Shown in pieces: positions 2,850-49,330 of a DNA stretch of 64,000 nt (the stretch's first letter is position 1; every line of letters starts with the position of its first letter). The position numbers and the translations under genes were made by a program. Under the pieces are notes generated by a model. The model worked only from the letters and a program-made list of their open reading frames with translations. It did no database searches and was not told the origin of the DNA. Source of the stretch: Chiridota heheva (taxonomy: Eukaryota; Echinodermata; Holothuroidea; Apodida; Chiridotidae); assembly GCA_020152595.1 (NCBI GenBank), contig JAIGNY010002621.1, forward strand, positions 1,681,001-1,745,000, read 5' to 3'.

Positions 2850-3034
2850 TTATTGCGGCTTGCACGCCGCTACATCACTTTCTTCCAGATCGTTGACCTC
2901 CAACCACTGATTGACGTCTTTTTGGTGTTTCTTCTGGGGTGACACTTCTTCCGTCTTCGTATTCTCTGCATCAATCTCTTGGATTCGCCTCTTTACTGTG
3001 GATCGTGAAAGCTCATTTACTGGAATGTTATGAT
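2850..3034 (-). CDS. Coiled-coil gene exon 37 (terminal coding exon)
   Basis: The acceptor AG is at 3035-3036 and the stop TAA at 2850-2852. The 185 bases complete the split codon left by exon 36 and encode 60 residues plus stop. The sequence is hydrophilic and charged: it starts near HNIPVNELSRSTVKRRIQE, continues through a Lys/Gln-rich stretch and ends in AACKPQ. It looks like a non-coiled tail with phosphorylatable Ser/Thr and basic clusters. No family motif is recognised. Confidence 0.8.
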
Positions 3035-6364: not shown

Positions 6365-7541
6365 GGTTTGTTTGTTTGTTTGATGAGGTCTTAACGGCAC
6401 CACCACAACAAGGGTCAAATTGTGCCTGAAAGGTCAGATCATTTTAGAGGTAGGAAAAAAAGGAAACAGGGGGAGAATGAGAGAAATTCAAGAACAAAAG
6501 TCAGAAAGCTGTGATCGAGAGAGGAGTTGCATGAGTGAAACAAAAACAAAGTAGAGAGGGGGTGGAAGAGGAGAATTAAATATGGCTGTAGAGGGAAGCA
6601 TGATGAAGGAAAGAGATAACTTTATCTGGAGGATTTTTCTGAAATAACTCAGCAATTGAGTTGTGGGGAGTAAGGGAAGCTCTGGGAAGGTTGTACAGGG
6701 GGCAAGCAAGGAGAACATGATGGATTGTGAGGGTGCAGTGGCAATTGTTACAGAGGGGTTGGGGGGAACCAATAAGGAGGTGGGAGTGAGTGAGGTGGGT
6801 GTGACCAATTCTAAGACGGGTAATATGAACGTTGTTGATACGAGAGAGGTTGTTGATGGTGGATTTGATCGGAATTGTGGGCTGGATGACATGGAGTTTG
6901 TTATCAATTTGGGATTTCCATGAGGTTGTTAGCGGTCACGAACAAGGGAAGCGATAAGCGGTTTGATGTCAGAGAGGGTTTGGGAAAAGGGGTAGGGAGG
7001 AGGTTGAGGGCAAGCTTAGCGGCTGCATCAGCCCTGTCATTTTCAGGGATGCCATTATGGCTGGGTATCCAGAAGAAAAGAACACTTTTCCTGCAGAGGG
7101 TGGGAGAAAGGAGTTTCCAGAGGAGGAGGTGACATGTGAGATTATCCCATTTAAGATTGAGTAAAGAAGAACAGCCTTTTGAGTTGGAGAAAATGGCAAA
7201 GTGGCTGAGAGGAGAGTACTCAATAAAATTGAGGGTGAGGAGAATGGCCTTTGCCTCGGCTGAAAAGATGGATGAGTAGTCAGGAAGTCTGCTACTGAGG
7301 GTGATGTCTTGGATGACGGCAGCAGCAGCTGTCTTGTTGCCTTTCTTGGAGCCATCAGTATAGATGGAGGTGTAATTTGAGAGTTGGTCTTTGATTTGGT
7401 TGTGTAGATTGATGAAGAGGTTAGGGTGGGTTTGAGTTTTGTGATGAGTGGAAAGGTCTAGGTGGACAGAAGGAAGGGGGGTGGCCCAACGAGGAAAAGT
7501 GGGCCAGGAGTAGGTGCCGAGAGTGGCAGGGTTGATGCCGT
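6365..7541 (-). mobile_element. I-like LINE fragment (5'-truncated, nested in the DIRS-like element)
   Basis: Collinear with the 3' 1.2 kb of the full-length LINE at 23066-28565. It runs from the TTTGTTTGTTTGATGA tail at 6365 to the point of truncation at about 7541, where identity stops at GTTGATGCCG. It covers the RNase H end and 3' UTR. In this copy the RNase H Glu codon (7255-7257, GAG) is kept, but the later Asp is Asn. No flanking duplication is seen. Confidence 0.9.
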
Positions 7542-11412: not shown

Positions 11413-11731
11413 GAGTGATTCAAAAATCTGGTAAGCATTAATTTCAATATGCTATATAGATCATTAAATAGGCAATGAAGATATTATCAAGATCAACTAT
11501 CTTTCAAAGTTGTGAAATGCTATGTCTGATAGTTGGAAACATCTTGCCATATCTAAAAAAACTTTCAATGAATATTTGTTGTTGTTACCAACTAAAAGAT
11601 TAAACAAAGAATCAAAATAAGCTCAGGAACAAGATGTAAACCTATGAAGATATTAAATTCAAAAAGTAATAATACTAGTTAAAATCATCAAAACTATGTG
11701 AATGTGATTGTTTTTTAGTGCATATACTCAC

Positions 11732-11864
11732 TTCTCCTTCTCAAGTGTCCTCTTTGCTTGACTCAGTTCTTTCTCCAAGTGGAACTTTTGTGCCCTGAGA
11801 GAATGAACACCACAGGAGCTTATGATGCCTGAACCACCCTCAAACTCATACCCAGAAGATGAAC
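11732..11864 (-). CDS. Coiled-coil gene exon 35
   Basis: 133 bases, acceptor CTGAAA-side AG at 11865-11866, donor GTGAGTA. It reads SSSGYEFEGGSGIISSCG (a Ser/Gly-rich flexible break) and then re-enters coil with QKFHLEKELSQAKRTLEKEK. The Ser/Gly segment interrupts the rod and could be a phosphorylated hinge. Confidence 0.85.
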
Positions 11865-12263: not shown

Positions 12264-12384
12264 CTGAAACAAGACAAAAACATGCAATTTGATAATAATT
12301 TTACTCATATAACACACAGCTGTTAAAAACGGTAAGTGGTAAGTGATCATCTTGATGTTAAAAAAGAAAAGAAAAAAGAGTTAA

Positions 12385-12690
12385 ATTTCATCAAGCCTTT
12401 AGGGCTTATAGAGCTGGTGCTTATACCCCGTTTCCATGGTGCTAAGCAGATGTGAGTACTTGACCCCCTTCCTGGATGGGACACCAGTCCATCACAGGTT
12501 AACTCCCCAGCCAATACTGGCACTCATTTCATTGCTGAGTGTGAACTGGAGCAAATGGGATAAAGTGTCATGCTCAACAACACAGCACAGTGCCCTGGCT
12601 GGATTTTATCCCAGTACCTTTTGAGGATAAGACCGTCTGATTAAGTATAAAGCTAACCCCTGGGCTATTGCACTCCCCATCTTGATGGAG
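12385..12690 (-). mobile_element. tRNA-derived SINE-like copy 1
   Basis: A block ending in a degenerate tRNA-like head (minus strand, AGCCCAGGGGTTAGC near the right end, with a degenerate B-box-like GGGATAAAATCC). Its body includes ACACCAGTCCATCACAGGTT and CACAGCACAGTGCCCTGGCT. The same body recurs at 21.1, 22.85 and 60.7 kb. Confidence 0.65.
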
Positions 12691-13743: not shown

Positions 13744-13962
13744 CTGCAACTGCTCCAAAGTCTTCTTGGTCTCTGAATGCTCCTTGACCTCTCTCTCTAC
13801 CTTAGCCTCCATCTCATCCGCTATCTTTGTATTCTTCTCCCACATCTTCCTGGCATGTTGCTCCTTCTTGGTCATAATCTCAAGTCGTTTCTCTGTCTCT
13901 GCTAGCTTGGATTGATTGTTTTTTAAGGTTCCACCTGGTGAGCCACGTTTAGATTCAAGACC
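13744..13962 (-). CDS. Coiled-coil gene exon 32 (type C module)
   Basis: 219 bases, 73 residues, phase 0 at both ends. A Gly/Ser/Pro start (GLESKRGSPGGTLKNNQSKL) is followed by coil ending in VKEHSETKKTLEQLQ. It shares the E-H-x-E-T-K ending with exons 17, 28 and 31. Confidence 0.88.
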
Positions 13963-14377: not shown

Positions 14378-14575
14378 CTCCAAGAGTTTCTTGGTGTCGG
14401 AGTGGTCCTTTTTCTCTTTCTCCAGTTCATCTTCTAAGTCCTGCCCAATCTTGTAGCATCGATCCCACTGCGTCTTGGCCTGTTCGTACATCTTGGTTAC
14501 ATTCTGCAGCTTCTTCTCAACCTCTGCAAGCTTTGTATGCAAATCACTTTCACTGCCTGGATCACACACCGATTG
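14378..14575 (-). CDS. Coiled-coil gene exon 31 (type C module)
   Basis: 198 bases, 66 residues, phase 0. It includes TQWDRCYKIGQDLEDELEKE, closely parallel to exon 28 (SEWDRCFKIGADLEDELIQE), and ends in DHSDTKKLLE. It is a diverged copy of the same module. Confidence 0.9.
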
Positions 14576-15401: not shown

Positions 15402-15887
15402 AAAGCAACAAATGTTTGTTTATTTGATGAGGGCTTAATGGCACCACAACAACTAGGGTCAAATTGTGCCTAAGAGATTAGATCATTCTAGAGGTAGGAA
15501 GGAAAGAAAACGATTGAAAGAAATACAAGAACTAAAACTTAGAAAGCTGGGATCGAGAGAGGAGGTGCATGGGTGAAAAAAAACAAAGTAGAGAGAGAAG
15601 GTGGTAAAGGGAGACTAAATATGGTTGTAGAGGGAAGCATAGTGAAGGAAGGAGATAATTTTATCCGGAGGTTTTTTTGGAAGAAGTCGGTTGTAGAGGG
15701 AAGCATAGTGAAGGAAGGAGATAATTTTATCCGGAGGTTTTTTTTTGGAAGAACTCATCAATTGAGTTGTGGGGAGCGAGGGAAGCTCTGGGAAGGTTGT
15801 ACAGGGGCAAGCAAGGAGATGTGATGGATTATGAGGGTGCAATGGCAATTGTTGCAGAGGGGTTGGGGGAGCCAATAAAGCAACAAA
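15402..15887 (-). mobile_element. I-like LINE fragment with 11-bp target duplication
   Basis: The 3' 460 bases of the LINE, bounded by direct repeats AAAGCAACAAA at 15402-15412 and 15877-15887. The 3' tail (TGTTTGTTTATTTGATGAGG) is on the left, so it lies in the minus direction. It contains a tandem duplication of about 57 bases (about 15628-15747). Confidence 0.92.
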
Positions 15888-16555
15888 ATAATAAATAAAC
15901 AGGCAAGCACCTTCTTTACTAAGGTCCCCATATCACTTGCATATTACGTCATCACATACAGATTGTCACTGTAATAGAAATTGCATCCATTACATCATCA
16001 TACCCGAAAGTCTACGTCATTGATCAACCTTCATCTTATATGACAGAGGATGATGGCAACAAAAGAAATAGAAAATATCAAAAATCTGATTCTTCTAAGC
16101 TTAAAGTTGTATCAGATTTGTGTACAATCTGATTGACCCCTGGTGACATCACTTTCTCACAATCGTCAAAGTTAATTAATGGAATTTTGTTAAATACTTT
16201 TAAGAACGATTTTGTGACTTAAAACCATGTGTATATCACAAGAGTAGTAAAAGTTGGTCTAGTGAAGTAGCTGTGATGGGCGATCAAAAGAAATATTAAA
16301 AAAATATGTTCAATTCATGAATAATTTCAATAATTTAAAGTGCAATAACACTTGTTAGACAAAGTGCTAGCACATCATGTCTCTTGTTCAATAGTTGTCT
16401 ACACCAGTCACAAGCAGCTTCTAAATTCCAGATGTCTTGATGAAACAAGATATCGTAGTTTCGTCACTGTTAAAACTTTTTGGTCCTCTATTAAAGATAA
16501 ACATGTCTCACTAATGAATTTGTCATTTAAACCACTATGATTAAAAGGATTAGTT
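15888..16555. other. Intron 30 middle, partial match to the fold-back repeat
   Basis: No coding signal. Around 16025-16110 a stretch (CTTCATCTTATATGACAGAG) resembles the fold-back repeat that begins at about 16560. Confidence 0.4.
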
Positions 16556-16559
16556 TAGT

Positions 16560-17340
16560 GGTCAAGCATGTCCATCTTATATGAAAGAGGACTTTAAAAG
16601 AAACAAAATGGTGAAGAAAGCATTCAAAAATCTTATTCCGTTAAAGAAATATTTAGGTTTAAAGTTTGGTATCATCTCTGTAGAAACGACTAAAATCAGA
16701 CTAGTTGTGATGTCATAGCCTCAGATTCCTCAAAATCTTTATGTATTTTAAAGAAAGTTTATTTCATTTTTTTACTATTTAAATCAATTTCCCTCAAACT
16801 TTCTGCAGGTGGTATATTATAAATACCATTTCCAGATTCAGTTTTACTACTTTTCTGACATATCCCATGGTTTTTAAGCCACAAAATCGCAGGACAATTT
16901 CAGTCCTTTCTACAAGGACTGAAATAAGATTTTGCAATGCTTTCTTCACCATTTTGTTTCTTTTGAAGTCCTCTTTCATATAAGATAAACATGCTTAATC
17001 ACTGAACTAATCCTTTTAATATCTCCTTAACAGAATAAGATTTTTAAATGCTTTCACCATTTTTTTTTTTTTAAGTCCTTTTTCATGTAAGATAAATATG
17101 CTTGACCACTGAACTAACCCTTTTAATATCTTCTTAACAGAATAAGATTTTTGAATGCTTTCTTCACCAATTTGTTTTTTTGAAGTCCTCTTTCATATAA
17201 GATAAACATGCTTGACCACTGAACTAATCCTATTAATATCTCCTTCACAGAATAAGATTTTTGAATGCTTTCTTCACCAATTTGTTTCTTTTGAAGTCCT
17301 CTTCCATATAAGATCACCATGCTTGACCCCTGACATAACC
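16560..17340. repeat. Fold-back repeat with tandem arms
   Basis: A forward arm at 16560-16650 (CATCTTATATGAAAGAGGAC...) is answered by at least three reverse copies at 16920-17340 (TTTGAAGTCCTCTTTCATAT). Adjacent reverse copies repeat every about 100 bases. A diverged copy lies at 63.34-63.63 kb. It is non-coding and of unknown type, possibly a MITE-like element with an expanded arm. Confidence 0.7.
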
Positions 17341-17354
17341 CTTTAATTGCATAC

Positions 17355-17513
17355 CTGTTTCAGTTGATCCTTGACAGATTGGAGTTCTCTAGTAAGTCTG
17401 TCCACTTGAGTTTGTTTTGCATTTAAGACATCCTTGATGGAGCTCTCAGCCTCCACGTTCATCTCCATCAAACACTTCCGCTCTTCCTGCAGTTTCTCAT
17501 ACTCCTCTTTTTG
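17355..17513 (-). CDS. Coiled-coil gene exon 30 (type A module)
   Basis: 159 bases, 53 residues, phase 0, acceptor CAG at 17514-17515, donor GTATGC. It reads EYEKLQEERKCLMEMNVEAE and then LTRELQSVKDQLKQ. It is a diverged A module (compare exons 13-16). Confidence 0.9.
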
Positions 17514-17535: not shown

Positions 17536-17857
17536 GCTTCTTTCTTTGTTTGATGAGAGTTTAATGGCACCACAACAGCAAGGGTCAAATTGTGCCTGAG
17601 AGGTTAGATCATTCCAGAGGTAGGAAGGAGAGTAAACAGGGGGAGATTGAGAGAAACACGAGAACTAAAAGCCAGAAAGCTGGGATCGAGAGAGGAGGTG
17701 TATGACAAATAAAAAAAGTAGAGAGAGGGGGTGGGGATGGAGGGCTAAATATGGTTGTAGAGGGGAAGCTTGATGAAGGAAGGAGATAATTTTATACGGA
17801 GGTTTTTTTTTGGAAGAACTCAGCAATTGAGTTGTAGGGAGCGAAGGAAGCTTTGTA
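17536..17857 (-). mobile_element. I-like LINE fragment, 3' end
   Basis: Matches the LINE 3' UTR from the TTTGTTTGATGAGAGTTTAA tail to a truncation at GGAAGCT near 17857. It starts only about 22 bases 5' of exon 30's acceptor in gene order, so it lies inside the polypyrimidine/branch region. No clear target duplication. Confidence 0.85.
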
Positions 17858-18349: not shown

Positions 18350-18547
18350 CTTTTCCAGGCTTTGTTTTGTCTCTTCATGGTTCTTCCTCTCCTCACTTAG
18401 TCTGCCCTCCAGCTCATCTGACTTTTGTCTGCTACCGTCCCATTGCTTCTTCATGTCATCATTGCACTGAACAGCTGCCTCCAGTTTCTCTTTTAGTTCA
18501 GAGAGTTTTTGCTGCAAGCCATCAGTTTCATCTGATTGGTTTGATGT
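18350..18547 (-). CDS. Coiled-coil gene exon 29 (type B module)
   Basis: 198 bases, 66 residues, phase 0. It has the B pattern: QQKLSELKEKLEAAVQCNDD, a QWDGS core and ERKNHEETKQSLEK at the end. It is six residues longer than exons 21 and 24 because it keeps NQSD and QKS insertions. It is probably the least-altered founder of the B family. Confidence 0.92.
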
Positions 18548-18954: not shown

Positions 18955-19161
18955 CTTAAGGATTTCCAGCTGTTGCTTGGTCTCTTCATGCTCCTTCTGC
19001 TCTTGAATCAGTTCATCCTCTAAGTCCGCTCCAATCTTAAAGCACCTGTCCCATTCACTCTTGGCTCTGTTGTACGATTCTGTCATACTTTTCAACTTTC
19101 TCTCAGTTTCTTTCAACTTCTCCAAACTTTCCTTCTGAGAATGTAGTTCATTGGTAAGATG
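18955..19161 (-). CDS. Coiled-coil gene exon 28 (type C module)
   Basis: 207 bases, 69 residues, phase 0. It reads HLTNELHSQKESLEKLKETE, then SEWDRCFKIGADLEDE and EHEETKQQLEILK. It has the same length and ending as exon 17. Confidence 0.92.
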
Positions 19162-19406: not shown

Positions 19407-19562
19407 TTGTAATTGAGTGCTAGCAGCTTCTAATGCATTGTTGAGCTCATTAATTTCTTGCTCCTTGGCTGCAGATGCTTCCTTAGCTGTGTTCTCTGCA
19501 TCCGTGCTCATCTGTATCAAACAATTGTATTGCTCTTCAAGTTTTGTGGATTGCTCTTTTAC
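19407..19562 (-). CDS. Coiled-coil gene exon 27 (type A2 module)
   Basis: 156 bases, 52 residues, phase 0, donor GTAGGT. It reads VKEQSTKLEEQYNCLIQMST and ends LEAASTQLQ. The A2 type is recognised by the -QLQ end and by being one residue shorter than A1. It pairs with exons 20 and 23. Confidence 0.93.
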
Positions 19563-19716
19563 CTGTGAGAACAGCAACAAGGTCAAGAGTGTTTCAGATC
19601 TGATATTTGTTGTAACACTTGAAGGTATTATTATTTGAAGGTGTTTGAAAAAAAAGAAAAAAGTCAGTGTCTTACAAAAAACATAATCCACTTTCATAAA
19701 GTAAAATACAGCATAC

Positions 19717-19875
19717 CTGTTGTAGTTCAGCTTTTGCAGCATCTAATGCTTTGGTCAGCTCATCAATTTCTTGCTCCTTGGCTGCAGATGCTTCCTTAGC
19801 TGTGTTCTCTGCATCCGTGCTCATCTGTATCAAACAATTGTATTGCTCTTCAAGTTTTGTGGATTGCTCTTTTAC
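19717..19875 (-). CDS. Coiled-coil gene exon 26 (type A1, extra copy)
   Basis: 159 bases, 53 residues, phase 0. Nearly identical to exon 25, including the flanking intron, so it arose by a recent local duplication of a unit of about 314 bases. It ends KALDAAKAELQQ. Confidence 0.93.
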
Positions 19876-20030
19876 CTGTGAGAACAGCAACAAGGTCAAT
19901 AGTGTTTCAGATCTGATATTTGTTGTAACACTTGAAGGTATTATTATTTGAAGGTGTTTGAAAAAAAAGGAAAAAAGTCAGTGTCTTACAAAAAACATAA
20001 TCCACTTTCATAAAGTAAAATACAGCATAC

Positions 20031-20189
20031 CTGTTGTAGTTCAGCTTTTGCAGCATCTAATGCTTTGGTCAGCTCATCAATTTCTTGCTCCTTGGCTGCA
20101 GATGCTTCCTTAGCTGTGTTCTCTGCATCTGTGCTCATCTGCATCAAACAATTGTATTGCTCTCCAAGTTTTGCAGATTGCTCTTTTAC
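20031..20189 (-). CDS. Coiled-coil gene exon 25 (type A1 module)
   Basis: 159 bases, 53 residues. It reads VKEQSAKLGEQYNCLMQMST and ends DAAKAELQQ. Its 5' flank (NFYQNK-type shadow sequence, TCTTAGGAATCCTAACTTCT) matches the flank of exon 22, so the two are paralogous. Confidence 0.93.
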
Positions 20190-20582
20190 CTGTGAAAACA
20201 GTAACAAGGTCAAGAGTCTTAGGAATCCTAACTTCTATCAAAATAAAAGTATGTTTAACTTTCAAGTCATATCATCTACGAAAATGACTTCCATTATTTC
20301 AACTTTTGTTACTTTATCTGCTTAGTTGAAAACATAAATTATATACACTTTTGAAATGTATGAATGGACCATGTCCCAAACGCAGTAGCAATTTGTACAT
20401 GACTATCAAATTGGCAGGTATGAGTTGTCATGATTGCAATGTTGAAATTTTGGTAATAATCCAATTCCTCTCTTGATTTGCCATTTCCTATTTATAAGGT
20501 ATTCATCAATTGTTTTAAACTCTTTATCATTGTCATCAAAAAACAAAAACTTAAACTCCTGATGCATTGATGAAGACTGCAC

Positions 20583-20762
20583 CTTTTCCAGGCTTTGTCT
20601 CGTCTCTTCATGGTTCCTCCTCTCCTCACTTAGTCTGCCCTCCAGCTCATCTCTGCAACCGTCCCATTGCTCCTTCATGTCATCATTGCACCTACCGGCT
20701 GCCTCCAGTTTCTCTTCTACTTCAGAGAGTTTTTGCTGCAAAACATCAATTTCATCTGAGGT
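20583..20762 (-). CDS. Coiled-coil gene exon 24 (type B module)
   Basis: 180 bases, 60 residues, phase 0. It reads TSDEIDVLQQKLSEVEEKLE, has a CNDDMKEQWDGCRDELEGRL core and ends ETRQSLEK. The same exon recurs as 21 and 18. Confidence 0.93.
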
Positions 20763-21459
20763 CTAAGGTTTACAAAGAAATGAAAAGGTCAGCTGAATCT
20801 TAGAATGAACTTCAAACTAAATGAAATATAGATGTATGGATCGAAGTAATAAATATTATTCTATACATTATTAGGTAACTGCCTAACTTAAACTATAAAG
20901 TAGACTCTACAAACAAATTGTAACCTGGTGCATTTCCTATCAAGGTTTCAAGACTATTTTTGGTACCTAATCAATGTTTGATGTATTCTAAATGTTCTAT
21001 GCTGTTTACATATGGTCAAAAGAATTCTTTTTTTCTAATGAAAAATCACTTTCAAGAATTCATTTGAATAAAAAATATTCTATCACTTATGGTATGCAGT
21101 GGCTGCAGAGGATCTGTGGTAAATAAGTCATTCTCCTATGTGAAGGTAGCGGCTTCCGCTCCCATCGCAAGCAATGCATTATGTCTTGAGCAAGACACTT
21201 TACTTGTTCCAGTCCCCTCAGCTGTAAAATGAGTACCAGCACTGCTGCAGAGTTAACCTGCGATGGACTGGTGTCCTGTCCAGGGGGAGTCATGTGCTCT
21301 CACTCGCATACAGTAAGGAAACCAGAGATAAGCACCGGCCTGATGGGCCTTAGTACTTCCAAGTAATGATTTACCTAGTCATGGTATGAAGATTTACTTA
21401 CATCTTTAAATAGTCTAATAACTTAGCAAAACAGGACTGTGGCAAGATAATCAACATAC
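20763..21459. other. Intron 23 including SINE; duplicated as a block at 22512-23065
   Basis: The sequence from the B exon acceptor side to the SINE is repeated almost unchanged in the next trio, so introns were copied with the exons. An empty LINE target is preserved here at 21317-21325 (GGAAACCAG). Confidence 0.85.
21087..21360 (+). mobile_element. tRNA-derived SINE-like copy 2
   Basis: A plus-oriented tRNA-like head (TGTGGTAAATAAGTCATTCT ... GCGGCTTCCGCTCCC, a degenerate B box) is followed by TTGAGCAAGACACTTTACTT and the body with CTGCGATGGACTGGTGTCC. It is the paralogue of copy 3. Confidence 0.7.
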
Positions 21460-21615
21460 TTGTAATTGAGCATAAGCAGCCTCTAATGCTTTGGTCAGCT
21501 CATCAAGCTCTTGCTCCTTGGCTGCAGATGCTTTCTTAGCTGTGTTCTCTGCATCCATGCTCATCTGCATCAAACAATTGTATTGTTCTTCAAGTTTTGT
21601 GGATTGCTCTTTTAC
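21460..21615 (-). CDS. Coiled-coil gene exon 23 (type A2 module)
   Basis: 156 bases, 52 residues. It reads VKEQSTKLEEQYNCLMQMSM and ends LEAAYAQLQ. Phase 0, donor GTATGT. Confidence 0.93.
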
Positions 21616-21774
21616 CTGTGAGAACAGCAACAAGGTTAAAAGTGTTTCAGATCTGATATTTATTGTATCACTTGAAGGTATAATTATTTGAAGGCGTTTT
21701 AAAAAAAGATTTAAAAAAAAGTAAAGTGTCTTACAAAGACATATTCCACTTTCATAAAGTAAAATACAGCATAC

Positions 21775-21933
21775 CTGTTGTAGTTCAGCTTTTGCAGCAT
21801 CTAATGCTTTGGTCAGCTCATCAATTTCTTGCTCCTTGGCTGCAGATGCTTCCTTAGCTGCATTCTCTGCATCTGTGCTCATCTGCATCAAACAATTGTA
21901 TTGCTCTTCAAGTTTTGCGAATTGCTCTTTTAC
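21775..21933 (-). CDS. Coiled-coil gene exon 22 (type A1 module)
   Basis: 159 bases, 53 residues. It reads VKEQFAKLEEQYNCLMQMST and ends DAAKAELQQ. Phase 0. Confidence 0.93.
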
Positions 21934-22331
21934 CTGTGAGAACAGCAAAATGGTCAAGAGTGTTAGGAATCCTAACTTCTATCAAAATAAAAGTATGTTT
22001 AACTTTCAAGTCATATCATCTATGAAAATGACTTCCATGATTTCAGCTTTCCTTACTTTATCTGCTTAGTTGGAAAAATATAAACTATACGACACTTTTG
22101 AAATCTACAGATGACCATGTCCTAAACTCAATATTAATTCGTAAATGACAACATTGTTAGATATGAGTTGCAATGTTTGCAATGTTGACATTCTGATCAT
22201 AACTGAGTTTATCTTTTCATTTGCCATTACCTACTTACTAGGTTATTTATCAATTGTTTAAAACTCTCTTTTTTATCATTCTCTTCAAAAAACAACACTA
22301 AAAATTCTTAATGGATTTGTGAGAACTGCAC

Positions 22332-22511
22332 CTTTTCCAAGCTTTGTCTCGTCTCTTCATGGTTCGTCGTCTCCTCACTTAGTCTGCCTTCCAGCTCATC
22401 TCTGCAACCGTCCCATTGCTCCTCCATGTCATCATTGCACCGAACGGCTGCCTCCAGTTTCTCTTCTAGTTCAGAGAGTTTTTGTCGCAATACATTAATT
22501 TCATCTGATGT
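22332..22511 (-). CDS. Coiled-coil gene exon 21 (type B module)
   Basis: 180 bases, 60 residues. It reads TSDEINVLRQKLSELEEKLE and has a CNDDMEEQWDGCRDELEGRL core. Phase 0. It heads the second copy of the trio. Confidence 0.93.
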
Positions 22512-22832
22512 CTAAGGTTTACAAAGAAATGAAAAGGTCAGCTGAATCTTAGAATGAACTTCAAAGTAAATGAAATATAGATGTATGGATCGAAGTAATA
22601 AATATTATTCTATATATTATTAGGTAACTGCCCAACTTAAACTATAAAGTAGACAATACAAACAAATTGTAACCTGGTGCATTTCCAATCAAGCTTTTAA
22701 GACTATTTTTGGTACCTAATCAATGTTTGATGTATTTCAAATGTTCTATGCTGTTTACATATGGTCAAAAGAATTCCTTTTTATGAAAAAATCACTTTCA
22801 TGAATTTATTTGAATAAAAAATATTCTATCAC

Positions 22833-23056
22833 TTATGGTATGCAGTGGTTGCAGAGGATCAGTGGTAAATGAGTCATTCTCGTGAGTAGCGCATTCGACC
22901 CCCATCGCAAGCAATGCATTATGTTTTGAGCAAGACACTTTACTTGCTCCAGTGCACTCAGCTGTAAAATAAGTACCAGAACTGCTGGGGAGTTAAGCTG
23001 CAATGGACTGGTGTCCTGTCCAGGAGGAGTCATGTGCTCTCACTTGCATACAGTAA
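22833..23056 (+). mobile_element. tRNA-derived SINE-like copy 3, split by the LINE
   Basis: Paralogue of the SINE at 21087-21360. Its 3' part resumes at about 28575-28620 (AGCAAAGCACCAGAGATGGG) beyond the inserted LINE. Confidence 0.75.
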
Positions 23057-23270
23057 GGAAACCAGTTTGTTTGTTTGATGAAGGCTTAACGGCACCACAA
23101 CAACTAAGGTCAAATTGTGCCTGAGAGGTCAGATCATTCTAGAGGTAGGAAGTAAAGGAAATAGGGGGAGAATGAGAGAAATTTAAGGACAAAAGGTCAG
23201 AAAGCTGTGATCGTGAGGGGAGGTGCATGGTTGAAACAAAAAAAAGTAGAGAGGGGGTGGAAGAGGAGAA

Positions 23271-25740
23271 TTAAATATGGTCGTAGAGGGAAGCATGATG
23301 AAGAAAGGAGATAATTTTATGCGGAGGATTTTTCTGGAAGAACTCAGCAATTGAGTTGTAGGGAGCGAGGGAAGCTCTGGGAAGGTTATACAGGGGGCAA
23401 GCAAGGAGAATGTGATGGATTGTGAGGGTGCAATGGCAATTGTTGCAGAGGGGTTGGGGGAAGCCAATAAGGAGATGGGAGTGGGTGAGATGAGTGTGAC
23501 CAATTCTAAGACGGGTAATATGAACGTTGTCAATACGAGAGAGGTTGTTGATAATGGCTTTGATCGGAATTGTGGGCTGGATGACATGGAGTTTGTTATC
23601 AATTTGGGACTTCCATGAGGTTTGCCAGCGGTCCTGAACAAGGGAAGCGATAAGCGGTTTGATGTCAGAGAGGGTTTTGGGAAAAGGGGAAGGGAGGAGG
23701 GTGAGGGCAAGCTTAGCGGCTGCATCAGCCCTGTCATTACCCGGGATGCCAACATGGCTGGGTATCCAGAAGAAAAGAATAATTATCCTGCAGAGGGTGG
23801 GAGAAAGGAGTTTGTGGAGGAGGAGGTGGCATGTGAGGTTATCCCATTTAAGGTTGAGTAAAGAAGTAAGAACAGCCTTTGAGTTGGAGAAAATAACAAA
23901 GTGGCTGAGCGGGGAGTACTCAATAAAGTTGAGGGCAAGGAGAATGGCCTTAGCCACGGCTGAAAAGATGGATGAGTAGTCGGGAAGTCTGCTACTAAGG
24001 GTGATGTCTTGGATGACCGCAGCAGCAGCTGTCTTGTTGCCCTCTTTGGACCCATCAGTATAGATGGAGGTGTATTTTGAGAGTTGGTCTTTGACTTGGT
24101 TGTGGAGATTGATGAAGAGGTTAGGATGGGTTTGAGCTTTGTGATGAGTGGAGAGGTCTAGGTGGACCGAAGGGAGGGGGGTGGCCCAAGGAGGAAAAGT
24201 GGGCCAGGAGAAGGTGCCGAGAGTGGTGGGGTTGATGCCGAGATGGAAGAGGTCTGATTTAATACGTAAGCTGAAGGGAGGGGATAGGGTTTTAGTCCAA
24301 TCAAAGAGGGTGGAGAAATTGGGGTACCTAATGAGGTTGTAAACAGGGTTCTGGGTGTTGGTGAGGACCCTAAAAGCATAGGATAGGCTAAGCTTTCTAC
24401 ATCTAAGTAGAAAGGGGGGTTCGTTGGCTTCAACATGACGGCTGGTAATTGGGGAGGTCCTGTAAGCACCTAGACAAAGCCTGGGGGCTTCATTTTGGAT
24501 GTTGTTGATGTGGTTGAGGTATGAGTTGTGAGCGACACAGTAGACAATATTGCCGTAGTAAAGCTTGGCACGAATGGTGAGCCTGAAAATTTTGAGGAGA
24601 GCAAAGCGCTTCGCACCCCAAGTGGTGTTGGAGAGGAGTCTGAGGAGGTTGAGGGAGCTGTTGCATTTCAGTTTTAGGTTGGTGATGTGTTGCTTGTAGG
24701 CAAGCTTGGGGTCTAGAGTTAGACCCAGGAACTTTGTGTGTTTAACTTTTGGGATGTGATTACCATTGAGCACAAAGTTCGGGTTGGGGTGGAGGTTGTT
24801 GAAATGACAAAAGTGCATGCAGACTGTCTTGTCTTTGAAGAATTTAAAACCGTTTTTGTTGCTCCAGTCTTGCAGCAGGTCGAGGCTGATTTGGAGCCTA
24901 CTTTCAACAATAGAAAAGCTAGGGGAGGAGTAGAAGATGGTGAAGTCATCCACATATAAGGTACGTTTGATGTTGGGGCCAGGGTTATCCGCGATGTCAT
25001 TGATGCTCAGGTTGAAGAGAGTGGGAGAGAGGATGCTGCCTTGGGGGACGCCCTCTTCTTGGGGGTACGGGTTGGAGAGGGTGTGGCCAATACGAACTTG
25101 GAACCGCCTGGATGAGAGGAAGTTTTGAATAAAGATGAGGAGATGGCCTCTGAGGCCGATGGTGTGAAGTTTGCGGGTAATGCCGTATTTCCAAGTAGTT
25201 TCGAAAGCTTTCTCAAGGTCAAAAAATATGGCAATGAGGTGTTCCTTTTTTGCAAAGGATTCTCGGATAGCGGTGTCGAGCGTAATTAACTGGTCTAGGG
25301 TATCGCGACGTTTTTGGAAGCCGCTTTGGTCAGGGGAGAGGATTCTGTTGGTCTGAAGAAACCAGTTTAGTCTCTGATTAATGATCCTTTCCATAATTTT
25401 ACAGAGACAGCAAGTTAGGGCGATGGGGCGGTAGCTGGAGGGGTCGGTACCGTCTTTCTTCGGTTTAAGGACGGGGATGACAATAGCTGTCCTCCATATA
25501 GGGGGAAAGGAGTGTGAGGTCCAAATGTTGTTGAAGATTGTGAGAAGGGTTGTGGTGGCCTTGATGGGAAGGTGTTTCAGGAACTGGTAGGGGATGTTAT
25601 CTGGGCCCTTGGAGGTACAGCCAGCGTCATGGATAGCTAGGTTCAATTCAGAGAGGGTGAGAGGGGCCTTGTAGCTTTCGGAGTTGTCGGAAGGAAAAGT
25701 GATTTTCCGGGCTTCATCAGAAGCTTTTTTGGTTTGAAGG
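23271..25740 (-). pseudogene. LINE ORF2, reverse transcriptase and RNase H part
   Basis: RT motifs in order: TAIVIPVLKPKKDGTDPSSY, FDLEKAFETTWK (first Asp), EEGVPQGSILSPTLFNLSIN, then TLYVDDFTIF (the catalytic YVDD, intact). RNase H follows with YTDGSKEGNKTAAAAVIQD and GIPGNDRADAAAKLA. The Glu of the expected SA-E-AKAI is Val here (codon 23955-23957), and the Asp of F-S-D-S-K is Asn (23883-23885). A zinc-finger-like CNNCHCTLTIHHILLAC lies near the C-terminus. RNase H is probably inactive; RT looks chemically complete. Confidence 0.92.
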
Positions 25741-26977
25741 TATTGGAGTAGTTGGTCGGGGATGAGATGTTGCTAAAAGTGGCGGCGAGGTGGTTAATGA
25801 AGTCCTTTTTTGCGGTGAGAAGGTCACCATTCTGAGAGAGATGGGAGATGGGAGATTTGCCCACTCTGCCGTGGAAGCTGTTAACCATTCTCCAAATCTT
25901 CTTTGTAGGGGTGTTGGTGGTGAGAGAAGAGATGAAGTTGTTCCAAGTGTTAGTTTTACTGTCCTTAAAAGTGCGTCTGGCCTTGGCACGGCTGATGCGA
26001 AAGAGGTTGAGGTTATGGGTGGTCAGGTTAGTTTTGAAGTTCCTGAGGGCTCTTTTCCTGTTCTTGATGGCGGTTTTGCAGTCATCAGAGAACCAGGGGT
26101 TGGGGGGATGATTTGGGGGTTTGGAGGTTTTGGGAATTGAGCAGATGGCGATGTTGATAAGGATATTACTGAAGTTTGACATGGGTTCCTCATCCTCAAG
26201 GAGATGGGGGGAGAGGTGTGAGTCACAGAGGGTTTCGAAAAGGGGCCAGTCAGCCTTCTCGAGGTTCCAATTTGGGGTGTGGTCAGTGGGGGTTTGAAGG
26301 TTAGAGTGTATAAGAAGAGGGTAATGATCACTACCACAGAGGTCAGCGGTGACTCTCCAGCTAAAATCAGGGAGGAGGTTGGGGGAACAGATAGACAGGT
26401 CAATACAGGTAAGGGAGCCTGTGGCAGGGTGAAGGTAGGTCCGGGAGTTAGTGTTGAGCAAGGAGAGGCTGTGCTGACGAAGAGTGTTCTCGATGAGCTT
26501 GCCTCTGGGGTTGGTGGTAACAGAGCCCCACAGAGGGTTGTGAGCGTTGAAGTCACCAAGAAGGATGAAGGGGGAGGGGAGCTGAGAGATAAGGTTGTTA
26601 AGGCTGGTTGGCTGAATGTTGGTGTTGGGAGGGAGATAGATATTGCAAAGAGTGAAAGTTTTGTGGAGGGAGATAGATATACAGATGGCCTGAAGGTCGG
26701 TGTGCACTTGAACAGGGCTGTGCGGGATATCGTGTCTTACGAGAATGGAGACGCCCCCACAGGCCCTGTCGGCGTCCACTTGATGTTTGTGATAGCAAGC
26801 GAAGTTGTTGAGGGAGTAATGGTCGGTGGTTTTCAAAAAAGTTTCTTGTAGGCAGAAGACGACCGGGTTGAAGGTGGTGACCAGAAGGTCAATTTCTTTA
26901 GAATTGGCCTTAAGGCTCCTTATGTTCCATTGTATGATATTGAGAATGTTATTTCTATCGTTTATGTTGCACGCCAT
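25643..26977 (-). pseudogene. LINE ORF2, APE-type endonuclease part
   Basis: Starts at ATG (26975-26977) inside the last bases of ORF1, an overlap of about 23 bases. It has the endonuclease hallmarks: IIQWNIRSL, VFCLQETFL (catalytic Glu), LLGDFNAHNPLWG (Asp-Asn), and GSDHYPLLI (Ser-Asp-His). This enzyme nicks target DNA for priming. The frame ends at 25643, but the RT frame is already open upstream. The two frames meet at a run of six T (25725-25730), so a one-base slip there explains the split. Confidence 0.92.
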
Positions 26978-28350
26978 AAGGAGGCATAAGGTTATCTTGA
27001 GGAGGATCTGTTTGGTCTGAGCTGCTTAATTTTCTCTTTGGATTTGTCCCTATTTCTTTGGGAACGGTTTTTTTTAAAGTTGGACGAGAAGTATGTTCGG
27101 TAACCGAACAATCCATGTTCTCTTCCGTGTCATTAGTGTGGGTGTGGGTTTGGATGGTGGACTGTTTGTTTATTGGTTGTTTCTTGGTTTGTTGCTTGTT
27201 GATTGGGTGACTGTTACTGTTAGCCACGTTGGCTTGAGTTTGTTGTTTGTTGGCATTAGATGGGTTGACGTAGGGGATGGCGGAAGTCTTTGAGGAGGAA
27301 GGAAGGTTAGGGGGAGAAGTGGTGGAGGTGGAGGTCGTTTGGGTAGTAGGTGTGGTTTGTTTGTTGTCAATGGTGATGGGCTTAGGACTTGGTAAGAAGA
27401 GCCAGGTGAGGTCTGTTTGGGTATGCGAGTCAGTTTTTTTTGTGTTAGGGGGGGCATTATTGGTGTTGGAGGAGACTACGCTCGAGTAGGATGGAATAGT
27501 ATGCAGTGAAGCGAGAAATTGCTTCCTGGCCTCTGGGTATGTGATGTTGGGGTTAAGGGAGTTTAGTTTGGTTATTTGTTTTTCTTGGAGCCAGGTGGGG
27601 CAGTCTTTAGAGAAGGAGGGATGGTTTGCTGGATGGGTACCGCTGCAATTCGTGCAGTGTGGGGTGCTGGTGCAGGAGGTGCTGTCATGGTCTAGGGCTC
27701 CACAGTTGCCACAGCGCGCTTGGCTGCGGCAGGAGTTTTTCCCATGGCCATACCTCTGGCACTTATGGCAACGGAGGTGGTTTGGGATGTAAGGAGTGAC
27801 TGGGATCCTTAAGCAGCCTGCTGTTAGGTGGGAGGGGAGAGTTGGTGTGGAAAAAGTTAGGAAAATGGTGTTAGTGGGAGTTTCGGCACCGTCTCTCTTG
27901 AGGACGAAACGACGGGCTTCTGTGACATTTTTGTTGGTTACTTCGTTTACGAGATCTTCATCAGTAAGGTAGGCCAGATCCCTAAATCTGACCACACCTT
28001 TACTGTAGTTTAGGGAACAGTGGGGGGTGACAGTAACGTCAATTCCTGTATTAGCTAGGGTTTTATTCTTGAGGAGGGTGGTAGCTTGAGTATCTCTGGT
28101 GCAGTGCACCAGGAGATCGCCAGATCTGAGGGTGGAGACTTTAGGGAGGGTACCGACAAGACCTTGGAGTGCCTTGTGGATTAGGAATGGGGAAACTTTC
28201 TTCTTTATTTGTGGCCTGTATTATAAGGATTTTAGGGATTGGGGCTGAATAATGGTTAACAGTGGTGGTAGGTGGGTCACGGGGAGGGGAGGGAGGGTCA
28301 AGATCAAGGTCAAGGCAAAAGCGTTTTGTCATCGTGAAAAAACAAACCAA
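26955..28350 (-). pseudogene. LINE ORF1, Gag-like CCHC protein (one frame break)
   Basis: The main frame is 26955-28109 and continues in-frame upstream to about 28200. The N-terminal part (28141-28350, MTKRFCLDLDLDPPSP onward) lies in another frame and joins at about 28195-28206, where a one-base change is needed. Three zinc knuckles are seen: CHKCQRYGHGKNSC, CGNCGALDHDSTSC and CTNCSGTHPANHPSFSKDC. These bind element RNA in the I and related clades. A long Ser/Thr/Asn/Pro/Gln tail follows. Confidence 0.88.
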
Positions 28351-28574
28351 GGGCCGAGACTCGAGGCAGCTAGAAAAAAAGTCGCGGAACTACTATATTA
28401 GGACCGCTATACTGTACCGAAGGCGCAAAAAAAACTGGTCAGAACGAAATGGAACGAAAGGGAGAATATAAAGGAAACGATCTCACCGAGAAGAAAAGCC
28501 CATCCACAGAGAGAAAATCCGAAAATGATGATATAAAACAAAATTTGTGCAAAGTCAAGTGAAGTGGAAACCAG

Positions 28575-28714
28575 AGCAAAGCACCAGAGATGGGCATTCA
28601 AGTTCCAAGTAATGACTTAGCTAGTTATGATACATCTTTTAATAGTCTAATATTAAAACCTTTAGCGAACAATTAATCTAGCAAAACAGGACTTTGGCAA
28701 GATCATCAACATAC
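28575..28714. other. Remainder of SINE copy 3 and intron to exon 20
   Basis: Alignable to 21326-21459 (TTCCAAGTAATGA and GCAAAACAGGACT shared). It confirms that the LINE split a duplicated intron. Confidence 0.8.
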
Positions 28715-28870
28715 TTGTAATTGAGCATCAGCAGCATATAATGCTTTGGTCAGCTCATCATTTACTTGCTCCTTGGCTGCAGATGCTTCCTCAGCTGTGT
28801 TCTTTGCATCCGTGCTCATCTGCATCAAACAATTGTGTTGCTCTTCAAGTTTTGTGGGTTGCTCTTTTAC
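28715..28870 (-). CDS. Coiled-coil gene exon 20 (type A2 module)
   Basis: 156 bases, 52 residues, phase 0. It reads VKEQPTKLEEQHNCLMQMST and ends LYAADAQLQ. More diverged than exons 23 and 27. Confidence 0.93.
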
Positions 28871-29024
28871 CTGTGAGAACAGCAACAAGGTTAACAGTGT
28901 TTCAGATCTGATATTTGTCGTATCACTTGAAGGTATAATTATTTGGAGGTGTTTAAAAAAAAAAAATTAAGTCAGTGTCTTACAAAAAACATAATCCACT
29001 TTCATAAAGTAAAATACAGCATAC

Positions 29025-29183
29025 CTGTTGTAGTTCAGCTTTTGCAGCATCTAATGCTTTGGTCAGCTCATCAATTTCTTGCTCCTTGGCTGTAGATGCT
29101 TCCTTAGCTGCATTCTCTGCATCTATGCTCATCTGCATCAAACAATTGTATTGCTCTCTAAGCTTTGAAATTTCATCCTCAAC
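29025..29183 (-). CDS. Coiled-coil gene exon 19 (type A1 module)
   Basis: 159 bases, 53 residues, phase 0. It reads VEDEISKLREQYNCLMQMSI and ends DAAKAELQQ. Its first ten residues differ from the other A1 exons, while the rest and the 3' intron match them. This suggests an exon hybrid or partial gene conversion. Confidence 0.93.
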
Positions 29184-30017
29184 CTATGAAAGAAACCAAC
29201 ATATTATTGTCAAAAGGGTTTTGAATCCCTTTTAAAGTTCATCAAAATTTAGTTATACTGTCTATGAATATGTTATTCCTGATATTCAATTTCTTCACTT
29301 GTTTCACAACTTTCACTGGTTATGTAGATCAGCAACACTATTAGCCATCTACTGAAAATTGGCATACCTTAACTGAATTTCAGTTACCAATTATTATATC
29401 CTTGTTAGGTATGTTTAGTCTACATTGTTGCTAACATGACGATCTGAGAGGCCTATCAAAAACTTGTCCAAACCCCTCAGCACAGAAACCACAATTTATC
29501 TACCAATTATCATCCTACCTGAGTACTTTTTATTCTTTAAAGTCCTCCAGGCACTAATTGGAGAAAACTATTAGTGAATTGCATGGTTGGCTTTGCTCAG
29601 AAAATAAGATCTCCAAACCACACTTTACTAAAAGGGCTGTGTATAGCCAGCAATTTAGCTTGCTCAAATTCACTGGTTAATCAAGCATTGATGTTAACAA
29701 AAGAGTCCAGGAGAGTGAGACTTAGTGGAGACGGGTTTGAAATATAATATCGCTGACTTGTTCCATTTGCCAATCGGGACTTGGTGTTGGAAACTTATAG
29801 GCCTCTTGGATCGTCATAAATGATCAGAAACGTATCTTTATGCTAATTTTGGTCCTTTTTCTTTTGTCAAGGAACTTCTCAGTTACAAATCAAAATTTCA
29901 TTTTTGGTGCTATCAAAATAAAACCAAGAAATGTAAAAGTTATCTCTCCAGCAGGATTATTCCAGTGATTCTTCTAATACTAGTATTCAAATTTAAGTAG
30001 AAAAAGCTGAACTGCAC
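29184..30017. other. Intron 18, no recognisable element
   Basis: Unique-looking, AT-rich. It lacks the block shared by the corresponding introns of the other two trios, so it diverged or was replaced. Confidence 0.5.
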
Positions 30018-30206
30018 CTTTTCCAGGCTTTGTCTCGTCTCTTCATGGTTCCTCCTCTCCTCACTTAGTCTGCCCTCCAGCTCATCTCTGCAACCATCCC
30101 ATTGCTCCTTTATGTCATCATTGCACCGAACCGCTGCCTCCAGTTTCTCTGCTAGTTCAGAGAGTTTTTGCTGCAAAACATCACTTTCATCTGATTGGCT
30201 TGATGT
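30018..30206 (-). CDS. Coiled-coil gene exon 18 (type B module)
   Basis: 189 bases, 63 residues, phase 0. It reads TSSQSDESDVLQQKLSELAE, has a CNDDIKEQWDGCRDELEGRL core and ends ETRQSLEK. It keeps the SQSD insertion of exon 29 but lacks its QKS, so it is intermediate between exon 29 and exons 21/24. Confidence 0.93.
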
Positions 30207-30629: not shown

Positions 30630-30836
30630 CTTGAGGATTTCAAGCTCCTGTTTGATTTCTTCATGATTTTTCTTCTCTTGGCTCAGTTCACCTTCCAAAT
30701 CCTCTACAAACTGCTTCAAATGGTCACATTGAGCTTGGGCTGCGACATACAATTCTGACATGTTCTTCAAATTTCTTTCACTCTCTTGCAACTTTTCAAC
30801 ATTCTCCTCCATGGAAAGCTTTTCATTAGCATGAAG
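30630..30836 (-). CDS. Coiled-coil gene exon 17 (type C module)
   Basis: 207 bases, 69 residues, phase 0. It reads LHANEKLSMEENVEKLQESE and ends NHEEIKQELEILK. It has the same length and ending as exon 28. Confidence 0.9.
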
Positions 30837-36684: not shown

Positions 36685-36834
36685 CTGTTGCAATTCCTCC
36701 TGAGCACGTTCCAGTGCTTTGGTCAGCTGATCAATTTCTTGCTTGAAAACTTCTTCTGAGGAGAATTTGGAGTCTTCAATCATTTGTAAGAGGTTGTTAC
36801 GTTCCTCTTCAAGGGCTGAGTATTGCATTTTATA
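36685..36834 (-). CDS. Coiled-coil gene exon 16 (type A module)
   Basis: 150 bases, 50 residues, phase 0. It reads YKMQYSALEEERNNLLQMIE and ends LERAQEELQQ. A diverged A module, three residues shorter than A1. Confidence 0.9.
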
Positions 36835-37985: not shown

Positions 37986-38135
37986 TTGCTCTAAGTCTGC
38001 TTTTGCAATCTTAAGTTCCTCTGTCAGTCTTTCCAAATCTTCTTGTACTGAAGCCAAGACAGACTCCTTTACATTTGTGTTCATCTCAGTTAACAGTCTG
38101 TGCTCTTCTTGCAGCTTGAAGTAAAGCTGTTCATG
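37986..38135 (-). CDS. Coiled-coil gene exon 15 (type A module)
   Basis: 150 bases, 50 residues, phase 0. It reads HEQLYFKLQEEHRLLTEMNT and ends ELKIAKADLEQ. Donor GTATGT. Confidence 0.9.
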
Positions 38136-38510: not shown

Positions 38511-38788
38511 ATCAATGTGTTTGTTTGTTTCTTTGATAAGGGCTTAACGGCACCATGATAGCGAGGGTTAAATTGTGCCTGAGAGATTAGATCATTCCGG
38601 AGGTAGAAAGAAAAGAAAACAGGGGGAGATTGAGAAAAACATGAGAACTAAAAACCAGAAAGCTGGGATCGAAAGAGGAGGTGTATGGGTGAAAAAAACA
38701 AAGTAGAGAGAGCGGGGTGGGAGAGGACGACTAAATATGGTTGTAGAAGAAAGCATGATGAAGGAAGGAGATAATTGTATCAATGTGT
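38511..38788 (-). mobile_element. I-like LINE fragment with 10-bp target duplication
   Basis: The 3' 258 bases of the LINE, between direct repeats ATCAATGTGT at 38511-38520 and 38779-38788. Same direction as the gene. Confidence 0.93.
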
Positions 38789-39144: not shown

Positions 39145-39303
39145 CTCTTGTAATTCTAATCTAGCTGCCTGCAGTGATGTTGAAAGCTCCTTTATTTCTC
39201 TCTGCTTTGCTTCAGTAGCCTCTTGAGCAGATTTCTCGGTGTCTGAATTCGTCTGAAGTAGACAGTTGTGCTCCTCTTGAAGACGTTGCAATTCTGCTTT
39301 GCT
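39145..39303 (-). CDS. Coiled-coil gene exon 14 (type A module)
   Basis: 159 bases, 53 residues, phase 0. It reads SKAELQRLQEEHNCLLQTNS and ends SLQAARLELQE. Confidence 0.9.
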
Positions 39304-39535: not shown

Positions 39536-39694
39536 CTGATGGAATTGAGTCTGCAGTACTTGCAATTCTTCGGTCAGCTCATTCACTCTGCGATGACTTT
39601 CAAAAGACACTTCGTTCATGGTGGTTTCTGTATCAACGTTCATCTGCAGCAAACACTCATGTTCCTCTTGCAGGCTGAAGTATTGTTTCTTCCC
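39536..39694 (-). CDS. Coiled-coil gene exon 13 (type A module)
   Basis: 159 bases, 53 residues, phase 0. It reads GKKQYFSLQEEHECLLQMNV and ends LQVLQTQFHQ. Confidence 0.9.
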
Positions 39695-39915: not shown

Positions 39916-40113
39916 CGCTTCCAGGATTTCCTTTGTCTTCTCGTGACTCTGTATCTCTGCTTCCAGCTCAGATTTCATCTCCTCTGCATCTCTTCTGGAT
40001 TGCTCCACTTCTACACTAAGCTCATCTTGCACTGCTGACAGTCTTTTCACTTCCTCATCCTTCGTTGACAACATCTTATTTACATCACCCATGTCATTAT
40101 TTGCATTAGAATT
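39916..40113 (-). CDS. Coiled-coil gene exon 12 (type B/C-like module)
   Basis: 198 bases, 66 residues, phase 0. An Asn-rich start (NSNANNDMGDVNKMLSTKDE) is followed by coil ending EIQSHEKTKEILEA, the same S-H-E-x-T-K ending as the B and C modules. It heads the modular series. Confidence 0.9.
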
Positions 40114-44031: not shown

Positions 44032-44238
44032 CTCATCATCATTATGTGTATCTTCCAAGCTTCTTATTCTCTCCTGGTGTTCATCCTAAGTGCTTGTATC
44101 TTTCTTCACTGTCCTCTCTTTCTTTCAAGTTAGAGCATCCTGCCAGAACTTCATCTCCTCACTGAATTTCATATTTTCATCTGATAGAAGTTTTAGCCTT
44201 TCTTCAAGTTCATTTTTATCTGCAACCCATACAGCAGA
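44032..44238 (-). pseudogene. Coiled-coil gene exon 8 (frame disturbed)
   Basis: 207 bases with good splice borders (ATAG, GTAGGA). The first part reads ELEERLKLLSDENMKFSEEM in frame 0, the middle reads LKEREDSEERYKHL in a shifted frame, and the end (EHQERIRSLEDTHNDDE) is again in frame 0. Two in-frame stops result. Overall length stays a multiple of three, so two compensating one-base errors or mutations are implied. Confidence 0.7.
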
Positions 44239-46130: not shown

Positions 46131-46158
46131 ATTAGCTTATGCTAACTTTTTGACTTAC

Positions 46159-48465: not shown

Positions 48466-48583
48466 ATGAAGATTGAAATCAAGAATTGCCATCTTAGATA
48501 TCTGCATCACAATTTGAGTAGTCATTCATTGGAAATAATAACTTGGCTAAGAGAGTTTTTATCATAAACTTTTAATTTCTCAC

Positions 48584-48680
48584 TCAAATTCCATCTTAAC
48601 ATCCTTCTCCAAAGTTTCAAATTCCCGTAGCTCATTTAGTTCTCTCACTTGGCGATTTAAAAATATTATTTTGTTTCTCA
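48584..48680 (-). CDS. Coiled-coil gene exon 4
   Basis: 97 bases, acceptor CACAG, donor GTGAGA. It reads RNKIIFLNRQVRELNELREF and then ETLEKDVKMEFE. The REFETLE wording weakly recalls the region after the motor of kinesin-7 proteins. Phase with exon 5 is off by one. Confidence 0.7.
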
Positions 48681-49134
48681 CTGTGTAGTAATCAAAAAAA
48701 AAGTTGAATCAAGAAAAATCACAAGAAAAGAAAGTGGCAATTTTTGGTTGAATAAGTTCATCATTAAAAACCCTGAAACAAAAGTATGACAAATAATTCT
48801 TAAATGGATGAAAAGCAAGAAATTAGTACAAATTATGTCACCAAATGTTACTGAGATTACCAAATGCTACAACAAAATACTTTCAGTGTCCCTGACACTA
48901 TTTTAGGATAAATCTGGAAACAGATTAATATATTTTACTTATTTATGACATAAGACCTGAAAACAAATCTGGCAGAAGGATTATTTATAGTAGGGAAAGA
49001 TTGGTGAAGCTTTGGAAAAATTTCAAACTATCTCTAATTTTCTGAAAAGCTTACAAAACTTAATCACATTTTAAATTCGTTCCAAGTCTTCACTCTACGA
49101 AAAAGACCAAATTGTACGTGAAAATATAACTTAC
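48681..49134. other. Intron 3, nothing recognisable
   Basis: AT-rich, no coding signal. Confidence 0.5.
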
Positions 49135-49263: not shown

Positions 49264-49330
49264 CTGAGGCTAATAGAAATAGTACCAATACAATATTTGT
49301 AAGCTTTATTGATCAACGCATTATATTATA

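Follow-up and report, generated by a model that had tools for sequence, protein, structure and literature searches.

Titin, nebulin and Dscam are familiar genes in which phase-compatible exons have been copied in tandem. Here we consider a gene that, from its sequence, is most likely CENP-E (kinesin-7), and whose rod lies in 64,000 nucleotides from the sea cucumber Chiridota heheva (assembly GCA_020152595.1, contig JAIGNY010002621.1, positions 1,681,001 to 1,745,000 of the forward strand; this whole stretch is hereafter the window). In vertebrates, too, CENP-E is described as a kinesin-7 motor followed by a very long, discontinuous coiled coil; the human protein is given as about 230 nm long, with a stalk that matters (PMC6028960, PMC7475649). 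The reason for this great length is an open question: according to a review, artificial shortening impairs function, and the shortened constructs may be defective otherwise (PMC7475649). Sites under adaptive evolution have, moreover, been reported for mammalian CENP-E in a preprint (PMC11230421). We consider it probable that the rod of the holothurian gene has grown stepwise from two families of phase-0 exons, A and B/C, through duplications with ends inside exons, and that its B exons have been homogenised.

Exon inventory and a recent array of trios

Coordinates are window positions, the gene is on the minus strand, and exon numbers 12-32 are kept from an earlier note on this DNA. These 21 phase-0 exons span 40113 down to 13744 and sum to 1,219 residues. 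As that note had claimed for the cassette exons, lengths are multiples of three, and all 21 are open and AG/GT-flanked; two limits, one in exon 13 (start) and one in exon 14 (end), are corrected ones. Two families of helical exons are apparent, A (50-53 aa) and B/C (60-73 aa), and the transcript order is 12, A13-A16, C17, B18, A19, A20, B21, A22, A23, B24, A25, A26, A27, C28, B29, A30, C31, C32. Several assignments below derive from exon calling and a hidden Markov model (HMM), others from synonymous divergence (dS).

39916..40113, minus strand: exon 12, possibly B/C family (exon calling, HMM)
39536..39694, minus strand: exon 13, A family (start corrected)
39145..39303, minus strand: exon 14, A family (end corrected)
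37986..38135, minus strand: exon 15, A family, marginal score (exon calling, HMM)
36685..36834, minus strand: exon 16, A family (exon calling, HMM)
30630..30836, minus strand: exon 17 (C) (exon calling, HMM)
30018..30206, minus strand: exon 18 (B), trio 1
29025..29183, minus strand: exon 19 (A1), trio 1, with an array edge inside its 5' part
28715..28870, minus strand: exon 20 (A2), trio 1
22332..22511, minus strand: exon 21 (B), trio 2
21775..21933, minus strand: exon 22 (A1), trio 2
21460..21615, minus strand: exon 23 (A2), trio 2
20583..20762, minus strand: exon 24 (B), trio 3
20031..20189, minus strand: exon 25 (A1), trio 3
19717..19875, minus strand: exon 26, A2 (5') / A1 (3') chimera (diagnostic sites)
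19407..19562, minus strand: exon 27 (A2), trio 3, with an array edge inside its 3' part
18955..19161, minus strand: exon 28 (C), dS 1.27 to exon 17
18350..18547, minus strand: exon 29 (B), dS 0.118 to exon 18
17355..17513, minus strand: exon 30, A family, old (exon calling, dS, HMM)
14378..14575, minus strand: exon 31, B/C family (exon calling, HMM)
13744..13962, minus strand: exon 32, B/C family (exon calling, HMM)

The order B-A1-A2 is found three times, and the limits first proposed for the array, 19407 and 30206, hold. Trios 2 and 3 lie one 1,740-bp period apart, close to the spacing of about 1.75 kb noted before, and share their introns, which are 83-90% identical (609/684 positions or 89.0%, 324/389 or 83.3%, and 139/154 or 90.3%); in a self-comparison 19720-21325 matches 21460-23065 at 89.5% over 1,621 columns. 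Neighbouring exon copies with common flanking intron are what tandem exon duplication leaves behind, and a tandem amplification with introns included is supported. The description of trio 1 as more diverged is right for the introns around B18 and for the 5' end of exon 19. It fails for the A1-A2 intron, which in trio 1 (intron 19_20) has 93.5% identity to its trio 3 counterpart (intron 25_26), nearer than the corresponding intron of trio 2 (intron 22_23, 90.8%); these identities rule out trio 1 as the most diverged cassette for its A1-A2 part.

Trio 1 looks remote from trio 2 because a long interspersed nuclear element (LINE), a 5.5-kb non-LTR (long terminal repeat) element, has inserted between them:

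23066..28565, minus strand (sense to the gene): LINE in intron 20-21 (Pfam RVT_1, endonuclease, RNase H)

The LINE is flanked by a 9-bp duplication, GGAAACCAG, at 23057-23065 and 28566-28574, its empty site is present in trio 3, and its 3' part (about 0.93 kb) matches at least 39 other places in the genome at 96-97%; it inserted when the trios already existed. More fragments of the same family, 81-92% identical to the LINE in the array, lie at 6370-7540, 15414-15878, 17541-17855, 38523-38780 and 51172-53124. The A2-B introns of trios 2-3 also hold a dispersed element that we take to be SINE-like (resembling a short interspersed nuclear element), with copies at 21186-21339, 22922-23062, 12373-12610 and 60652-60887 that are 72-76% identical to one another.

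Junctions inside A exons

Exon 26 had been regarded as an even younger, single-exon duplicate. It is indeed young, since its duplicated stretch matches at 265 of 266 compared positions and has one gap in addition, but it is an A2/A1 chimera. Across exon 26 and 150 bases on each side (58 gap columns set aside), 142 sites distinguish exons 25 and 27; the first 70 agree with exon 27 (A2) only and the last 72 with exon 25 (A1) only, a single switch with zero exceptions. Plain single-exon duplication is ruled out by this pattern. The switch falls within exon positions 60 to 112, where a 51-bp run is exactly the same in exons 25 and 27, and 17 of the diagnostic sites lie within exon 26 itself (5 of A2 type, then 12 of A1 type). 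One switch inside sequence common to both parents is the mark of unequal crossing-over, and an assembly loop would look alike.

The other two recent junctions, at the edges of the array, also sit inside A exons. Compared with exon 22 in 25-column blocks, exon 19 has an identity of 32-68% upstream and about 60% where the exon begins, which rises to 88-100% at about position 18 and stays there for the remainder of the exon. Against exon 23, exon 27 has 88-100% identity from its start up to about position 120, past which the figure drops to 72-84% and, in the intron, to 24-56%. All three junctions (exons 19, 26 and 27) would be explained if misaligned A exons had crossed over unequally.

The 51-bp run common to exons 25 and 27 nevertheless counts against a biological origin of exon 26, because a loop through it in a graph assembly, walked twice, could yield this exon while the trios themselves are real. 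Exon 26 equals the product expected of such a loop, no more than a single base and a single indel separate its copies over the 266 compared positions, and a badly assembled stretch lies upstream of the array. On the other hand the two copies do differ, homopolymer statistics are normal in the cassette region, and long reads, if used, would span 314 bp. We regard an assembly artefact as unlikely, and crossing-over between A exons as the better account of exon 26.

Apparently young B exons in older introns

The four B exons (B18, B21, B24, B29) have pairwise dS values of only 0.11-0.20, with nonsynonymous divergence (dN) up to 0.10 and dN/dS of 0.26-0.73 in the six pairs. B18 and B29, which stand on either side of the rest, have dS 0.118; by comparison C17 and C28 have dS 1.27, and A19 versus A30 is saturated. 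(In these comparisons, as in the exon trees and the heptad model below, exon 13 was entered without its first 17 residues.) The likeness of B18 and B29 to other B copies covers the exon plus about 8-11 bases (the pair B21/B24 excepted), though the BLAST match between these two extends some 31-34 bases into the downstream intron; in none of 10 comparisons did the 100-base flanks of B exons score above the best of 200 shuffles. Of 12 intron pairs tested, 3 retain old homology across the greater part of the shorter intron, namely 17_18 versus 28_29 (1/200 shuffles as high) and 18_19 versus 21_22 and 17_18 versus 23_24 (0/200 each); clear homology is absent in the other 9 of 12. Because these three pairs keep old homology, their introns look like old duplicates enclosing young exons. 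Exons more alike than their introns or neighbouring exons allow are the sign of gene conversion, in this case with 3 of 12 intron pairs in support, and homogenisation of the B exons by exon-limited gene conversion is probably the simplest reading. By nested 9-bp losses B29 is closest to the C exons, followed by B18 and after it by B21 and B24, an order that the exon tree repeats with modest support.

Two intron pairs give this account little or no support: intron 18_19 is without homology to 29_30 (87/200 shuffles as high), and its homology to 24_25 is weak (8/200). The B exons could instead be alike through constraint on synonymous sites, which would keep dS at 0.11-0.20 even though the introns differ, with no need of conversion. 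Nonsynonymous change is not equally low in the B pairs, however, as the dN and dN/dS values above attest, and in the same gene dS is saturated or high between A30 and the cassette A exons and between C17 and C28. We give synonymous constraint little credence beside gene conversion.

Older members of both families

Modules outside the cassette had been proposed as older products of the same process. An A HMM was built from the seven cassette A exons (best of 3,800 shuffles, 13.3) and a B HMM from the four B exons (best of 3,400 shuffles, 15.1). A13, A14, A16 and A30 reach 35-54 bits with the former and C17, C28, C31 and C32 reach 27-36 with the latter, well above every shuffle; five coiled-coil controls from the same gene do not exceed 5.4 (A model) or 8.2 (B model). 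These scores support the assignment of A and B/C exons beyond the array to the two families of the cassette. The proposal does not extend evenly to the rest: A15 is marginal (13.5 against 13.3), exon 12 falls below the best shuffle with the B HMM (12.5) and with a C model (18.2 against 18.5), and B29 is not old at the exon level. Trees of the A and B/C exons have modest support, the A tree being blurred by the chimeric exon 26.

Two tandem repeats also lie among or beyond these modules: 16.2 copies of a 73-bp unit (94% matches) at 47294-48473, and a 110-bp repeat at 16923-17344, in the intron that follows exon 30, of which an inverted copy lies at 16540-16661.

Proposed growth, register and length of the rod

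We hypothesize that old duplications of B/C-A blocks came first, followed by tandem copying of a 1.74-kb unit and finally by a 314-bp step that would have produced exon 26, with unequal crossing-over between A exons as the mechanism, while the B exons would have been homogenised separately, by conversion limited to the exon. When crossing-over takes place in register within a phase-0 exon, the product is a chimeric exon of full length, and the frame is kept as a result. Each step would add about 53 or 165 residues with the frame kept and the heptad register little broken. In a home-made heptad model all 12 A exons begin at position d; the end falls at c in 10 of them and at b in two, and there is one discontinuity inside each; the A exons are relatives, so these observations are not independent. 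The start and end positions suggest that added A exons keep the coil nearly in register. With the rise of a coiled coil at 0.15 nm per residue, the extra length would be about 53 residues for exon 26 or 165 for trio 2, roughly 8 or 25 nm, and a rod lengthened in this way could affect chromosome congression.

It is plausible that rod length varies between individuals through copy number. One may go further and suppose that CENP-E rod length segregates in the species, in-exon crossing-over varying the number of A exons with frame and coil register kept, such that rod length could respond to selection linked to changes in centromere or spindle. Steps like that of exon 26 are so young (265/266 identical) that individuals may, if so, differ in A-exon number; we consider segregation very doubtful all the same.

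Identity of the gene

Kinesin motor pieces, noisy ones, are found at 66-76 kb on the same strand, upstream of the rod and outside the window. Three of them (28.1, 26.6 and 24.3 bits) exceed the best of 20 shuffled probes (23.5), which the remaining, weaker pieces do not. When the pieces are joined by X, the top solved structures are those of CENP-E (1t5c, 3.9e-15; 6m4i, 2e-14), and the next kinesin structure follows at E 6.6e-11. Two weak matches to human CENP-E (neck/rod start and C terminus) are collinear (48.7 kb, then 11.8 kb), amid other weak coil matches, and the gene ends in a CaaX-like box:

48583..48774, minus strand: rod-start-like stretch with NELREFETLEKD, human CENP-E, E 0.047 (match range, not exon limits)
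11701..11838, minus strand: C-terminal stretch GGSGII..LEKELS, human CENP-E C terminus, E 0.005 (match range)
2850..3034, minus strand: last coding exon, with a tatctttcag acceptor before it and a CaaX-like CKPQ plus stop at its end

Among the traits of CENP-E, the locus has a very long coiled-coil rod (1,219 residues in exons 12-32, with heptads by the home-made model only), an N-terminal kinesin motor in the upstream pieces, found with a partly circular probe, and a C-terminal CKPQ followed by a stop, for which prenylation is predicted only. Human CENP-E is described as prenylated at its C terminus (PMC6028960, PMC7475649), and the CKPQ end fits this description (PMC6028960) and so supports the identification. 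The kinetochore-targeting and BubR1-binding region would be represented by the GGSGII/LEKE similarity alone (E 0.005). On the contrary side, the motor pieces were picked with a human CENP-E probe, which makes the structure ranking partly circular, a single unjoined motor piece of 69 residues has no match among solved structures, and no match to an RVTW/RVTF (PP1/Aurora) site was found at 48-79 kb, much of it noisy sequence. On the cassette Pfam returned weak hits only, all below their cut-offs, a 513-residue piece of the rod has no match among solved structures, and Rfam has nothing at gathering scores within the window.

Integrity and splicing of the locus

The motor is poorly read because of a homopolymer-rich stretch from about 61-62 kb to 79 kb, in which 3-kb blocks hold 55-71 homopolymer runs (of at least 4) per kb, against 10-33 in other blocks; a run of N follows at 79001-84000. 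The broken motor pieces there are probably consensus error. Other features of the locus also tell against a functional, growing rod. Several rod exons of the 5' part, located near 49.2, 46.9, 45.0 and 44.2 kb, look by eye as if they were frame-shifted inside, so that decay is possible, and these breaks (44100-49300) would seem to be assembly error or decay. Trios 1 and 3 are without sign of constraint (dS 0.057, dN 0.053, p 1.0; without codons 1-7 of exon 19 and the end of exon 27), and constraint is not significant between trios 1 and 2 (dS 0.092, dN 0.072, p 0.51) or between B18 and B29 (p 0.49). Together with the noisy motor, the frame changes and the trio 1 versus 3 result would suit a decaying copy in which the cassette expanded as neutral debris. 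The excess of homopolymers above about 61-62 kb suggests consensus error in that part, however, and exons 12-32 are open in 21 of 21 cases. Trios 2 and 3 do show constraint (dS 0.127, dN 0.037, Fisher p 0.0054; 10.0 changes in 85.8 synonymous and 13.0 in 361.2 nonsynonymous sites, excluding exon 26 and codons past 36 in exons 23/27). A search of the species' own genome with A exons, in which 13 candidates were scored, placed 11 of 11 matches at this CENP-E-like locus only. We find decay distinctly improbable.

A further point on the same side is that the donors of the B exons and C17/C28 are weak (gtgcag, gtctgc, gtttgc). It may be that the A exons, phase 0 and nearly equal in length like those of mutually exclusive clusters, are alternative (mutually exclusive or skipped), in which case rod length would be independent of copy number, and weak donors on B exons are in keeping with this. 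Neighbouring A copies, however, encode almost identical peptides (3 residues separate exons 25 and 26), such that an exclusive choice would change little, and the introns, at about 155 bp, are not obviously below the splicing minimum. Alternative use of the A exons is in our view quite unlikely, and the exons of a stepwise-grown rod would all be spliced in.

Comparison with known systems

The locus suggests a safe way for a coiled coil to grow, by crossing-over inside phase-0 exons, and as each step keeps the frame, natural variants of rod length may exist. Natural rods that differ by whole exons, frame-neutral and nearly register-neutral, would make cleaner tests of why CENP-E is so long. The human CENP-E rod has internal repeats: with windowed queries, a 467-residue piece of it gave 20 window pairs at E <=0.01 with identities of 23-70%, and most of the strong pairs are spaced by about 150, 203 or 352 residues. 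Whole-piece BLAST of this rod piece against itself gave no off-diagonal pair. At the level of titles and listings, the open-access CENP-E literature turned up no exon-cassette amplification, chimeric exon or exon-limited homogenisation.

Among kinetochore proteins KNL1 is said, in work attributed to Tromer in 2015, to undergo rapid repeat evolution; its repeats are short linear motifs, unlike the phase-0 coiled-coil exons described here. Compared with titin, nebulin and Dscam, the present locus differs in that recent junctions fall inside exons and a chimeric exon results. The nearest mechanistic parallel that we found is in spider silk genes, as described for MaSp2 in Argiope, where exon repeats are also arranged in tandem within one gene and where unequal crossing-over and homogenisation have likewise been proposed (PMC9779670). 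In MaSp2, according to the same source, introns are homogenised too, whereas in the holothurian gene the B exons are alike and the introns around exons 18/29 have diverged.

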